A DNA stretch of 64,000 bases from Acidobacteriota bacterium (lineage in GTDB: Bacteria; Acidobacteriota; Terriglobia; Terriglobales; Acidobacteriaceae). Below, piece by piece: positions 35,537 through 40,183 of this stretch. A program made the position numbers and the translations under genes. Every line of letters begins with the position of its first letter. The stretch's first letter is position 1. The stretch is from contig JAJYZC010000007.1 in assembly GCA_021800255.1 (NCBI GenBank), positions 1 to 64,000 of the forward strand, in the 5' to 3' direction. Under the pieces are notes generated by a model. It saw only the letters and a list, made by a program, of their open reading frames with translations. It had not been told where the DNA came from and ran no database searches.

Positions 35537-37450
35537 CTACCTCACCTTGAGCACGATGATGGTCTCGTCGTCGAAGCGATCCTGCGCGCCTTGGAAGCGG
35601 GTGACGCCGCCGAGGATGGCATCGGCAATCTCCTCAGACGGACGGCTGCGATGAGCGCAAAGCAAGCCGGAGAGACGCTCCTCGCCGTACATCTCTTCGC
35701 GCTCGTTCTCAGCATCCAGAATTCCATCCGAGACGAAGACGATGACGTCGCCGGGTTGAGCGGCGACCCGGTGTTCGTCGTAGACGGCATTGGAAAACAT
35801 GCCCAGGGGAAAGCCCTCGGCGGGGATGGTGAGCGACTCCCACCCCGCCGAATCTGGACCGTCCGGCGAAGACCCTGGTTTTGCATCCCAGCGGCGAAGA
35901 CCTTCCGTGGTGGGACCCGGCCGCGCGGCGCGGCAGACGATGGGCTGGACGGCGCCCGAGTTGGCTACCTCGAGGGTGCGTTCCTCGTCGTTCCAGAGCG
36001 CGAAGAGCATGGTCACGTACTGGGAGTCGAGCTTGCGTTCCTGGAGGGCGCTGTTGAGCAGGGCGAGCATTTGCGCGGGCGGAGGCTGCTGCTGCGCGGC
36101 AGAGCGCATGATGCCGCTGAGGAGCGCGGCGAAGAGGGCTGCGGGCGCGCCCTTGCCGCTGACGTCGCCGAGCATAATCGCGGTGCGGCCGGGGCCGTAG
36201 TCTACAAAGTCGTAAAGGTCGCCGCCGATAGTGCGCGCCGGCAGGAAGCGGGCGGCAATCTCAGCGTGGCTATGCGCGGGCGGCGCGCCCGGCAGCAGAC
36301 GGAGCTGGACTTCGCGGGCCATCGATAGGTCGCGCTCAAGCTGCTGCTCCTGGCTGCGCACGGCCTGGTAAAGCCGGGCATTCTCGATGGCGATGGCCAC
36401 CTGCGCGCCCAGCGTGGCCAGCATGCGCTCGTGAGTTTCATTGAAAAAGGCAGGGCGGGTGTGTTCGAGATCGAGTACGCCGATGATGCGTCCCTTGTAA
36501 AAAAGGGGCACCACCAGCTCCGAGCTGGTTTCAGGGTTGACGGCTAGGTAACGCGGGTCCTTGTGAACATCGGGGACATTGATCGGGCGCCACTCGCGCA
36601 CGGCTGCTCCCACCAGGCCGGTGTCGATGGGGATGCGGCGCATGGGGGCGTGGGCGTGGCCGAACCGCCAGGCGTAGCGCGTGACCAGCGTTGTTCCTTT
36701 CTCGTCGAGCAGCATGAGGGAAAACATTTGGTAGTCGATGATGCGGCGCAGGAGTTGGCCGATGCGCTCAAGCAGCGGATTGAGGTCGAGAATAGAGGCC
36801 AGCTCGGCGGAGATCTCGTTGAGCACCTCCAGAGTTTGCGCTTGCCGCGAGACACGCGCATAGAGGCGCGCGTTCTCAATGGCCTGGGCGATGCGCGAGG
36901 CGGTGAGGGTGAGCAGATGCAGGTGTTCGGGACGAAAGAAGCCGGTCTGCTCGCTTTCGAGATCGATGACGCCAATCAGACGGTTTTTAGCGATAAGGGG
37001 TACGGCCAGCTCAGAGCGGACCTCCGGGTTGGCGCTGATGTAGCTGGGTTCTGTGGTGACGTCATTGATGAGCAAGGGCTGGCGCGTAAGCGCGACCTGG
37101 CCGGCGATGCCCTTGCCCACAGGAATCCGCATCCGCTCCACCTGGGGCGTGTGGCCGATCTGGAACCTCATGCGCAGCTCGCGCGTGCGCTCGTTGAGCA
37201 GGAAGATGGCGAAGATGCGGTAAGGGATAACCGCGCGCACCAGCTCGGAGGTGCGGCTGAGGAGGGTTTCAAGATCGAGCGTTGTGTTCAGGGCGTCGCT
37301 CAGCTTCATCAGATAGGCAGCGTCGGCGGGCTCGGTGTGTGAGTTAGCGGGATCGAGGGGCACGGGTGCGGCGGGGCGGTAATCGCCTTCGAGGTCTTGC
37401 GCCGCTGGTTGGCGGGCCGGCTCTGGAGCGGGGTTTGCGTCTTTAGGCAT
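35537..37450 (-). CDS. GAF-GAF-PP2C (SpoIIE/RsbU-type) serine phosphatase
   Basis: About 637 residues. Two GAF domains (about 60-205 and 225-380; ELAVPLIAKNRLIGVIDLES and ELVVPLFYKGRIIGVLDLEH) are followed by a coiled-coil linker and a PP2C/SpoIIE phosphatase domain (about 415-635) with IGGDLYDFVDY and LGDVSGKGAPAAL, the Mn-binding acidic residues. Such proteins dephosphorylate anti-sigma antagonists in response to small ligands. No anti-sigma kinase or antagonist gene is adjacent. ATG 37450; an extension to 37597 is unsupported. Confidence 0.92.
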   Translation of the reverse strand: MPKDANPAPEPARQPAAQDLEGDYRPAAPVPLDPANSHTEPADAAYLMKLSDALNTTLDLETLLSRTSELVRAVIPYRIFAIFLLNERTRELRMRFQIGHTPQVERMRIPVGKGIAGQVALTRQPLLINDVTTEPSYISANPEVRSELAVPLIAKNRLIGVIDLESEQTGFFRPEHLHLLTLTASRIAQAIENARLYARVSRQAQTLEVLNEISAELASILDLNPLLERIGQLLRRIIDYQMFSLMLLDEKGTTLVTRYAWRFGHAHAPMRRIPIDTGLVGAAVREWRPINVPDVHKDPRYLAVNPETSSELVVPLFYKGRIIGVLDLEHTRPAFFNETHERMLATLGAQVAIAIENARLYQAVRSQEQQLERDLSMAREVQLRLLPGAPPAHSHAEIAARFLPARTIGGDLYDFVDYGPGRTAIMLGDVSGKGAPAALFAALLSGIMRSAAQQQPPPAQMLALLNSALQERKLDSQYVTMLFALWNDEERTLEVANSGAVQPIVCRAARPGPTTEGLRRWDAKPGSSPDGPDSAGWESLTIPAEGFPLGMFSNAVYDEHRVAAQPGDVIVFVSDGILDAENEREEMYGEERLSGLLCAHRSRPSEEIADAILGGVTRFQGAQDRFDDETIIVLKVR

Positions 37451-37786
37451 CGGGGTGATTGTAGCGGAAAAGCGGGCTTGTGCGAATCTGCGGCATGGCC
37501 CTATTGCGCTGGAGCTCCGGCCCTGTGCGTAAACGACCGCCGTTTTTGATTGACGATGTGGACGGCCATCACAAACGTTCCCAAGCGGCGGGCGCAATGA
37601 TAGTGGAAGGGCTGCACGTGCTCGTCTACGCCAAATTCCATCTCACTTCGCTCGATTTGGATGGCCAGTTTTCGCGCCCCTACCGGATTTTTCGCCTGAA
37701 GATTGCTGCTCCCGTGCCGCGCGCCCGCAGGCAGGGTAAACAAAAGCAGCGGTTTCTCCCGCTCCGGATCCCTGTTCCCTGATTTT
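37451..37786. other. Intergenic region, no gene recognised
   Basis: Between the GAF-PP2C gene and deoC, both on the minus strand. Short open frames occur on both strands (about 100 residues at most) but have no recognisable motif or credible ribosome-binding site. Confidence 0.4.
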
Positions 37787-38542
37787 TCACGCCGCGCCCA
37801 GCTCGCGGAGGATGGGGACCGAGGCGGAGGTGCTGATGCGATTGGCGCCGGCTTCAAGCAGGGCGCGGACCTCGGCAAGAGAACCAATGCCGCCGGCGGC
37901 CAGGACGCCGCAGCGTGCTCCGGCTACACCGCGCAGCAGGGCAACGTCGGCGGGCGTTGCGCCGCCGGAAACAAAGCCGGTAGAGGTGACGATGAAGCCT
38001 GCCCCTGCCTGGATGGCGATCTCAGCGGCGCGCAGTTTTTCCTCCATGGTGAGCAGGGCGGCTTCAAGGATCACCTTCAAGAGAACGCCGTGCTCGTGGG
38101 CCACGCCGCTGGCGGCTTGGATGGAATGCTGGACGGCCTGGTGGTTGCCGCTCTTGAGCTGGCCGATGGGAATCACCAGGCCCAGCTCGCGGGCGCCGAG
38201 GCGAATGACGGCGGAAGCCTCTTGACGGAGGGTGGAGACAAGGGAAGCGCCCAAGGGAAAGCCGATCACGGCGCCGGCCGGAATGCCCGTGCCGGTAAGC
38301 GCGGCGGCGGCGGTGGAAGTCCATGCGGGGTTGACCATGACGCAAGCGAAGCGGTAACGGATGGCCTCGGCGCAGAGGGTTTCGATCTGTGCGCGCGTGG
38401 CGGCGGGGTTGAGCAGGGAGTGGTCGATGATCGCGGCCAGCGATTGCCAATTCGAGAGCGCCTGGGCGGTGAAGGCGGCCGCGTCGAAGCTGCCATGATC
38501 GAACTCAAGGTCCAAATTATCGATTGGCGCGATCCCTATCAT
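37787..38542 (-). CDS. deoC: DeoC-like protein lacking aldolase catalytic residues
   Basis: 251 residues, clearly of the deoxyribose-phosphate aldolase family by fold motifs: IIDHSLLNP, VNPAWTSTAAAALTG, VIGFPLGAS, KVILEAALLTMEEK, TSTGFVSGGATPADVALLR and AAGGIGS. The mechanistic residues are missing. The Schiff-base Lys in the family motif vKTSTGF is Val185, the second Lys of VKAAGGIR is Leu214, its Arg is Gly220, and the Asp of the eVDMV segment is Gly121. It is probably a pseudoenzyme or has a changed function. The reading frame is intact. ATG 38542 chosen; the frame upstream is unsupported. Confidence 0.85.
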   Translation of the reverse strand: MIGIAPIDNLDLEFDHGSFDAAAFTAQALSNWQSLAAIIDHSLLNPAATRAQIETLCAEAIRYRFACVMVNPAWTSTAAAALTGTGIPAGAVIGFPLGASLVSTLRQEASAVIRLGARELGLVIPIGQLKSGNHQAVQHSIQAASGVAHEHGVLLKVILEAALLTMEEKLRAAEIAIQAGAGFIVTSTGFVSGGATPADVALLRGVAGARCGVLAAGGIGSLAEVRALLEAGANRISTSASVPILRELGAA

Positions 38543-38679: not shown

Positions 38680-39225
38680 CTACTCCGGTTGGCCGGGGTC
38701 GAGGATGCAGATGTCGGGCAGGTTGCGATAGCGTTCGCCGTAGTCCATCCCGTAACCGATGACGAAAAGGTTGGGAATGGAGAATCCCACGTAATCGGCC
38801 TCGATGGGCTCGATGCGGCGCGAGGGCTTGTCGAGGAGGGTGGCGATGCGCAGGGTCTTCGGCCGCTGCTGGAGAAAGAGCTTGCGCAGGTAGGCGAGCG
38901 TGAGACCGGTGTCGAGGATGTCCTCGACAATCAGCACGTTCTTGCCCTCGATGGGCTGGTCGAGGTCCTTGATGAGCTTCACGGCGCCGGAGGAGCGCAG
39001 CCCGTTGCCGTAGCTGGAGGTAGCCACAAAGTCGTAGGTGGCGTCAGCCTGAATGGCGCGCGAAAGGTCCACGAGAAAAAATGCGGCGCCTTTGAGCACG
39101 CCCACCATAACCAGTTTTTCGCCGTGCAGGTCGCGGGTGATCTCAGCGCCCATCTCGGCCACGCGCTCGGCGATCTGCTGGCGGGAGTAGAGGATTTCTA
39201 GGCCCTGACAGGTCACGGTAGCCAT
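38680..39225 (-). CDS. hpt: Hypoxanthine phosphoribosyltransferase
   Basis: About 181 residues. Salvages hypoxanthine and guanine using PRPP. The PRPP-binding motif is VLIVEDILDTGLTL, and the N-terminal VGVLKGAAFFLVDL and C-terminal DYVGFSIPNLFVIGYGMDY are characteristic. ATG 39225 is preferred; a GTG two codons upstream is possible. It is divergent from lgt. Confidence 0.95.
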   Translation of the reverse strand: MATVTCQGLEILYSRQQIAERVAEMGAEITRDLHGEKLVMVGVLKGAAFFLVDLSRAIQADATYDFVATSSYGNGLRSSGAVKLIKDLDQPIEGKNVLIVEDILDTGLTLAYLRKLFLQQRPKTLRIATLLDKPSRRIEPIEADYVGFSIPNLFVIGYGMDYGERYRNLPDICILDPGQPE

Positions 39226-39361
39226 GCACACAGTATCGCGCGAAGGTCAAGCGGACGCGAATGTGCAAATCAAGGGTGAAAATTAGCCGTGTAGATCGAG
39301 GCAATAATTACGGAGGGGCGCGGCCGGCGGGGCAGGGCGGCGCGTCTATACTGGAAGAGCA

Positions 39362-40183
39362 GTGATTCCCTATCTTCATCTCGGACCCATCACCCTCCCA
39401 ACCTTCGGGCTGATGCTGTGGTTGTCAGCGGTTGCGGCCGTAGTCGTGGTAGACCGCAACTTCAAACGTGCCCACATCACCGCCGATGCGGTGGGGATGG
39501 TGGCCATCGCGGTGGTGGCGGGGATCGTAGGCTCGAAGCTCTGGCACGTGCTCGACACGCCCTTGGACTTCCGTGAGGAAGGCTGGCGCACGCTGTGGAG
39601 TTCGGCGGGATTCGCGTGGTACGGCGGCCTGACCTTCGGCATCTCCGCGCTCCTGATCCAGGGCTGGAAGGCGAAGATCGGGGCTTTACGGATGCTGGAT
39701 TTGTGCGCTCCGGCGGCGGCCATCGGCTACGGCCTGGGACGCATCGGGTGTTATCTTTCCGGCGACGGAGACTACGGGATCGCTATTAAACCCGTGCACA
39801 TCTTCGGGTGGACATTCCGTGCCTGGGGCACGAGCTTTCCCCACGGCCTTGTGCCGGTCTTCGTTCCCGTGTATCCCACGCCCCTCTATGAGCTGGCCGG
39901 AGGGCTGGTGATTGGCTGGTGGCTGTGGCGGCTCGGCGGCCGGACGCAACCTACGGGGCTGATTACCGGCCAGTACCTGCTGCTCACAGGATTGGCGCGG
40001 TTTCTGGTCGAGTTCATACGGCGCAACCCCAAGGTTTTGTGGGGCATGTCGAACGCGCAGGCAGCCAGCGCGGTAGCCGCGATTGCAGGCATCGCGCTCG
40101 CTTGGTGGGCGGCGCGCAGGCCCGTCAGCCAGCCGGTTCCAGCCGTAGTAAAAGAAGAAGAAGCCGCCGCCGCGCAGCGATAG
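39362..40183 (+). CDS. lgt: Prolipoprotein diacylglyceryl transferase
   Basis: 273-residue polytopic inner-membrane enzyme that attaches diacylglycerol to lipobox cysteines, the first step in maturing the lipoproteins encoded elsewhere in this window. The family motifs are FAWYGGLTFGI, the conserved Arg in YGLGRIGCYLSGDGDYG and VYPTPLYELAGG, with seven hydrophobic segments. It starts at GTG 39362. A TATACT sequence lies about 10 bases upstream, so the leader may be very short. A Lys/Glu/Ala tail follows the last membrane segment. Confidence 0.95.
   Translation: MIPYLHLGPITLPTFGLMLWLSAVAAVVVVDRNFKRAHITADAVGMVAIAVVAGIVGSKLWHVLDTPLDFREEGWRTLWSSAGFAWYGGLTFGISALLIQGWKAKIGALRMLDLCAPAAAIGYGLGRIGCYLSGDGDYGIAIKPVHIFGWTFRAWGTSFPHGLVPVFVPVYPTPLYELAGGLVIGWWLWRLGGRTQPTGLITGQYLLLTGLARFLVEFIRRNPKVLWGMSNAQAASAVAAIAGIALAWWAARRPVSQPVPAVVKEEEAAAAQR

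Follow-up and report, generated by a model that had tools for sequence, protein, structure and literature searches.

The window analysed here is a stretch of 64,000 nucleotides on contig C31 of a metagenome-assembled genome of Acidobacteriaceae (3.36 Mb in 102 contigs). The subject of this study is a deoC homologue read on the minus strand from 38542 to 37790, with its stop codon at 37787, and its frame is intact without any interruption. The gene and its conserved surroundings comprise the following features:

35537..37597, minus strand: ORF of a GAF/PP2C-type phosphatase regulator, the conserved downstream neighbour (synteny; matches to GAF-bearing regulators and SpoIIE-type phosphatases)
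37787..38542, minus strand: type A DeoC homologue (putative pseudo-DERA), 251 aa plus stop (profile, alignment, AlphaFold model)
37883..37885, minus strand: Gly220 codon, replacing the Arg that follows Lys201 (alignment)
37901..37903, minus strand: Leu214 codon, replacing Lys201 (alignment)
37988..37990, minus strand: Val185 codon GTC, replacing the Schiff-base Lys167 (alignment and codon reading)
38075..38077, minus strand: Lys156 codon (Lys137 of E. coli), the sole Lys remaining in the pocket (lysine content of the protein)
38180..38182, minus strand: Gly121 codon, replacing Asp102 of E. coli DERA (alignment)
38438..38518, minus strand: N-terminal extension, residues 9-35, LEFDHGSFDAAAF...NWQSLAA (alignments; regional omega)
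38680..39231, minus strand: hpt, hypoxanthine phosphoribosyltransferase, the conserved upstream neighbour (TIGR01203, 200 bits; synteny)
39362..40183, plus strand: lgt homologue, conserved and divergent from hpt (synteny)

By sequence and by fold, the window protein is a member of the DERA (DeoC) family. It scores 212 bits against TIGR00126, the equivalog model of deoC (curated cut-off: 117), and its matches among the sequences of solved structures are DERAs, with 8qps at the top (E 2e-55). The AlphaFold model presents a confident DERA barrel (mean pLDDT 91.4; pTM 0.87), for which the best solved structural match is the same Geobacillus DERA, 8qps (48% identity; rmsd 1.3 Å; TM-score 0.95 by target length). 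The open ORF of 251 aa, the profile score and the alignment to solved DERAs confirm what a previous sequence-only reading of this DNA had reported, namely an intact frame with the fold motifs of DeoC. The N-terminal extension, with its conserved LEFDxGTFDSAAF, is not found in the aligned solved DERAs and is retained by the dead copies described below.

We mapped the active site by aligning the window protein with 8qps and 6d33, using E. coli numbering for positions that were picked after the finding had been seen, though they are the textbook ones. In E. coli DERA, the Schiff base forms on Lys167 and the proton transfers involve Asp102 and Lys201 (PMC8403123). Lys167 is described in the review literature as not exchangeable without loss of function (PMC6244999) and Lys201 as critical (PMC8403123). 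The window protein lacks what the sequence of an EC 4.1.2.4 enzyme requires, since Lys167 is replaced by Val185, Lys201 by Leu214 and Asp102 by Gly121. The following Arg is replaced by Gly220, and the sequence-only reading had placed all four substitutions correctly. Two more positions depart from the solved enzymes: the Lys of LLKP is replaced by N45, and Gly236 by S237. Residues D40, H41, N71, K156 (Lys137) and E160 are retained, as are TSTGF and G217/G218, in line with the conserved TSTGF and AAGG frames noted earlier; the phosphate site keeps G189, G217, G218 and S239. We searched the window protein for a replacement Schiff-base Lys and found none: its only lysines are at positions 130, 156 and 169, and Lys156 corresponds to the ancestral Lys137, so that no Lys has moved to the lost site and substitution by another Lys is ruled out. 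According to the alignment and the model, the window protein thus keeps the fold of the enzyme without its conserved catalytic residues, as expected of a pseudoenzyme, and its catalytic activity was presumably lost. TIGR00126 nevertheless names such catalytically broken proteins deoxyribose-phosphate aldolases with an ample margin, which calls for caution in annotation.

Most type A copies carry a Met at the position of E. coli Cys47 (residue 69 of the window protein). This substitution was engineered to render E. coli DERA resistant to aldehydes (PMC6244999), and the type A DeoC of Acidobacteriaceae constitutes a natural source of Cys47Met-type DERAs.

We then compared type A, the native deoC, across 80 genomes of the genus (Terracidiphilus-type Acidobacteriaceae). 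The locus, in which lgt diverges from the series hpt, deoC and GAF/PP2C, is common to the genus and to other Acidobacteriaceae. The four core positions (E. coli Asp102, Lys137, Lys167 and Lys201; DKKK hereafter) were all readable in 74 type A copies of the genus; 60 present DKKK and 14 are broken. The same core was found in all 29 outgroup sequences, and its loss in the window protein is far from chance. Most orthologues of the genus, at this very locus, still have the full catalytic set, so the losses arose secondarily and in particular lineages. The possibility that the substitutions are conserved among acidobacterial relatives, raised with the sequence-only reading, was therefore rejected. 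Two other DeoC-like types were observed in the genus. About 16 genomes (loci L054, L057-L066 and others) contain a type B paralogue, 33-40% identical, whose catalytic lysines are all in place. A fourth, divergent type (31-33% identity) was found at L067 (G034:C132) and at G064:C208, and the copy at L067 keeps its lysines with unusual residues elsewhere in the site.

The genome of the window carries a further DeoC, which we call type C. This gene (C45:3064..2039, on a contig of 5.4 kb) encodes 342 aa with a complete catalytic set, belongs to the E. coli/human type and scores 148 bits against TIGR00126. The question of whether a second, normal deoC exists in this genome can thus be answered in the affirmative. 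Type C was detected in 21 of the 80 genomes of the genus, although its absence from draft genomes may be false, and DKKK is intact in every type C copy that was read (31/31). In the cassettes examined, type C is followed by an aldehyde dehydrogenase of roughly 800 aa: a homologous ORF lies downstream at 19 of the 22 loci, and contig ends cut several of those that lack it. The genes around type C vary from genome to genome. Between genus g49 and the window genome, type C is 88-90% identical, compared with 70-72% for hpt and 57-61% for type A. The variable neighbours and these uneven identities suggest that type C is mobile and spread by horizontal transfer. Across the 398 genomes of the family, type C was found in 147 and type A in 233, and the two seldom coexist: some genera (g23 and g80) possess type C only, and some others almost only type A, a distribution that looks like wholesale replacement. 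The window genome also contains a second, partial type C sequence on a short contig (G000:C80:395-712; L275), 98% identical over 106 aa, which could represent strain variation or a recent duplication.

The loss of catalytic residues in type A is associated with the presence of type C. A catalytic Lys was lost in 17 of the 36 type A copies coexisting with type C (C+) versus none of the 119 copies without it (C-); these are raw copy counts, for which plain Fisher p-values disregard relatedness. Within the genus, 13/20 C+ genomes have a broken core versus 1/54 C- genomes; the only broken C- copy, from an assembly that is 76% complete, presents a conservative change of Asp to Glu, and DKKK is found in the other 53. 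Outside the genus, it is broken in 4/16 C+ copies (the 16 genomes with both types having been identified by comparing the two family-wide lists) versus 1/65 C- copies; among these 65 copies of other genera, 64 possess DKKK, none has lost a Lys and one shows Asp to Glu. Over 45 columns invariant in the outgroup (29 sequences), C+ copies accumulated 5.6 changes on average versus 2.0 in C- copies. We rejected the type B paralogue as the trigger of the losses, since genomes bearing type B without type C keep DKKK. One C- genome that is 84% complete (G100) has a type A similar to that of its C+ sisters at a number of positions, and its type C may be missing from the assembly.

The C+ genomes are scattered over the gene tree, as they are over the tree of the neighbouring genes (the latter built with FastTree and with treekit in quick mode), and the residues that replace the lost catalytic ones vary by lineage (V, N, S, R, Q, T and C), which led us to reject a single ancestral loss. 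Parsimony yielded at least six Lys-loss events (6-7) in the genus and about four outside, suggesting about ten independent losses. Two genomes of another genus (G391 and G402) both present Gln for Lys167 in type A, but the two copies share 71% identity, less than the 78-80% that they share with intact congeners, indicating that Lys167 was lost separately in each. Elsewhere, the type A copy of G306 has lost Lys137 and Asp102, and that of G235 all four residues. All of the 6-7 losses of the genus fall on C+ branches, which represent about 25% of the length of the gene tree; the chance of six events all falling there is about 2e-4 to 7e-4. On the neighbour-gene tree, the conservative independent-pairs test of treekit counted about three pairs in favour of the association and none against, a number with which it cannot reach 0.05.

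These recurrent losses also bear on the idea that the substitutions reflect an error of sequencing, assembly or binning. The sequence-only reading had proposed that the usual lysines in relatives would point to such an error, and most relatives do carry them. The conclusion drawn from this was not borne out: the residues were lost on separate occasions, with varying replacements, and in no genome that lacks a second DERA. The fragmentation of the window genome into 102 contigs and the position of type C on a 5.4 kb contig would leave room for an artifact. However, the same class of loss was found in 16 further genomes, G391 and G402 each carry both genes on a single megabase contig, and the changes consist of several missense substitutions and zero frameshifts. 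We consider an error to be extremely improbable.

The distribution of intact copies is informative about which change came first. An intact type A core persists in 7 C+ genomes of the genus and in 12 outside it, including three of g49, and no Lys-less type A was found among the 119 copies of C- genomes. This fits a scenario in which type C arrived first and the loss in type A followed. In the complete C+ genome G102, hpt and the GAF/PP2C gene have no deoC between them, so that any non-catalytic role of type A was dispensable at least once. A small ORF occupies the place of deoC in this genome (L271:6162-6542) and resembles a TonB C-terminal domain by eye.

We analyzed selection on the dead copies with an MG94-type codon model (own code) on the gene tree and on the neighbour-gene tree. 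Within dead clades, omega was 0.070 and 0.074, respectively, very close to the values of C- branches (0.074 and 0.063), and a synonymous divergence of about 2.8 substitutions per codon underlies the dead-clade estimate. Imposing omega = 1 in dead clades worsened the fit by 368 and 460 lnL units. The branches leading to dead clades presented an omega of 0.13-0.14. The neighbouring hpt, used as control, showed no shift (0.034-0.039 in every branch class), and the dead pair G084/G089 yielded a dN/dS of 0.03. On the branch of the window itself, omega was 0.127 (P = 0.17 relative to the background; below 1 at P = 3e-15), this single branch including a stretch of undefined length that predates the loss. 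As the dead lineage of the window consists of a single branch, selection on its own gene after the loss is deduced from the other dead clades. These results bear directly on whether type A, made redundant by type C, is a decaying pseudogene without any role. Its catalytic positions do decay in C+ genomes only and with varied replacements, and type A is missing altogether in G102 and in the majority of C+ genera. Against this, all 20 C+ copies of the genus are open and encode 250-253 aa, and omega lies far below 1 in dead clades as it does in active copies; neither a disrupted frame nor neutral evolution was found. Ongoing decay therefore appears quite improbable, and the evidence argues for a gene retained by selection. 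The sequence-only reading had suggested a retained pseudoenzyme, and this proposal is supported by the complete second DERA and by dead orthologues that are open, full length and under the same purifying selection as active copies.

Constraint was not distributed evenly along the protein. With branch lengths fixed, omega rose from 0.012 to 0.038 in dead clades (P = 0.002) for a set of 34 pocket residues of our own choice. The barrel outside the pocket changed little (0.065 to 0.071; P = 0.42). Omega of the N-terminal extension was 0.17 in the background and 0.082 within dead clades, and this region is apparently more constrained in dead copies.

The sequence-only reading had also considered an enzyme with a new reaction, for instance one using Lys156 as nucleophile or chemistry without a Schiff base in the same pocket. 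This part fares less well. The pocket is still constrained, K156 and E160 are retained in nearly all dead copies and Lys201 in 14 of 17. However, the replaced positions differ between lineages, which a shared chemistry would not predict, K156 itself was lost in three copies, and the window protein has also lost the Asp and the second Lys. On balance, we regard a changed reaction as unlikely. A related idea is that the pocket serves as a non-catalytic sensor, binding a sugar phosphate and signaling to a partner. The phosphate-site residues kept by the window protein and the remaining constraint on the pocket are compatible with this idea. But the Gly205 position of the phosphate loop is occupied by Arg in one dead clade and by Asp in three other C+ copies, and Gly236 was lost in the window protein; ligand binding is thus not commonly conserved. 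A sensor is conceivable, though rather unlikely, as a special form of the explanation that we favor.

We favor a scenario of repeated enzyme displacement, which has probably turned the native DeoC into a selected pseudoenzyme with a non-catalytic role. The native deoC of Acidobacteriaceae would have been inherited vertically at the hpt-deoC-GAF/PP2C locus. A mobile type C DERA would then have taken over the cleavage of deoxyribose-5-phosphate, here and in about nine further lineages. The aldehyde dehydrogenase beside it could oxidize the acetaldehyde released by this cleavage, and we take the two genes to form such a pathway from what is known of their families. Relieved of its chemistry, type A would have lost Lys167, Lys201, Lys137 and/or Asp102 lineage by lineage. 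Because the barrel and the N-terminal extension stayed under purifying selection, we infer that a non-catalytic job was kept. This job was most likely already present in the active enzyme, as the equal constraint outside the pocket before and after the loss suggests, and might be that of a structural or regulatory partner; as a guess, the protein it works with could be HPRT or the GAF/PP2C regulator, both encoded at the same locus. It is an even bet whether the DeoC of Acidobacteriaceae was ancestrally two-functional, combining an aldolase with a selected non-catalytic role tied to the N-terminal extension and the barrel, with the repeated arrival of type C removing the chemistry. If true, nature would have provided about ten independent separation-of-function mutants of DeoC.

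Pseudoenzymes are usually traced to duplication. Here, a native DeoC repeatedly loses a catalytic Lys only beside a distant isofunctional enzyme and the remnant stays selected. Comparisons between closely related genomes could thereby test directly whether a textbook metabolic enzyme conceals a non-catalytic role.

Our search of open-access papers for a DERA or aldolase pseudoenzyme returned nothing relevant, and we compared the window protein with the closest known systems. It resembles DERA (DeoC; TIGR00126, PF01791) in its TIM barrel, superposable on 8qps as described above, its TSTGF and AAGG motifs, its Lys137 and most of its phosphate-site residues. It differs from DERA by the missing Schiff-base Lys, second Lys, Asp and Arg, by the additional N-terminal extension and by the Met at the Cys47 position. 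The engineered K184L variant of Bacillus halodurans DERA (6MSW) has a Leu where the E. coli enzyme has Lys201, matching L214 of the window protein, but only this one residue was changed and its Schiff-base Lys is still present. The prozyme of Trypanosoma brucei is a dead AdoMet decarboxylase paralogue that regulates the active enzyme (PMC5201418). It shares with our case a dead homologue retained beside an active enzyme; in contrast, it has another fold and family, is a close paralogue and has a function shown experimentally. PDX1.2, of the eudicot PDX1 family of pyridoxal-phosphate synthases, is a retained beta/alpha8-barrel pseudoenzyme that joins catalytic PDX1 partners (PMC6829848). Like the window protein, it is a barrel homologue without key active-site residues that is retained and conserved. 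Whereas PDX1.2 pairs with a close catalytic paralogue, in our case it is the native DeoC itself that lost its catalytic residues, next to a distantly related gene of the same function; we estimate that this happened in about ten lineages. By analogy, PDX1.2 illustrates how a barrel pseudoenzyme can act through its partners.
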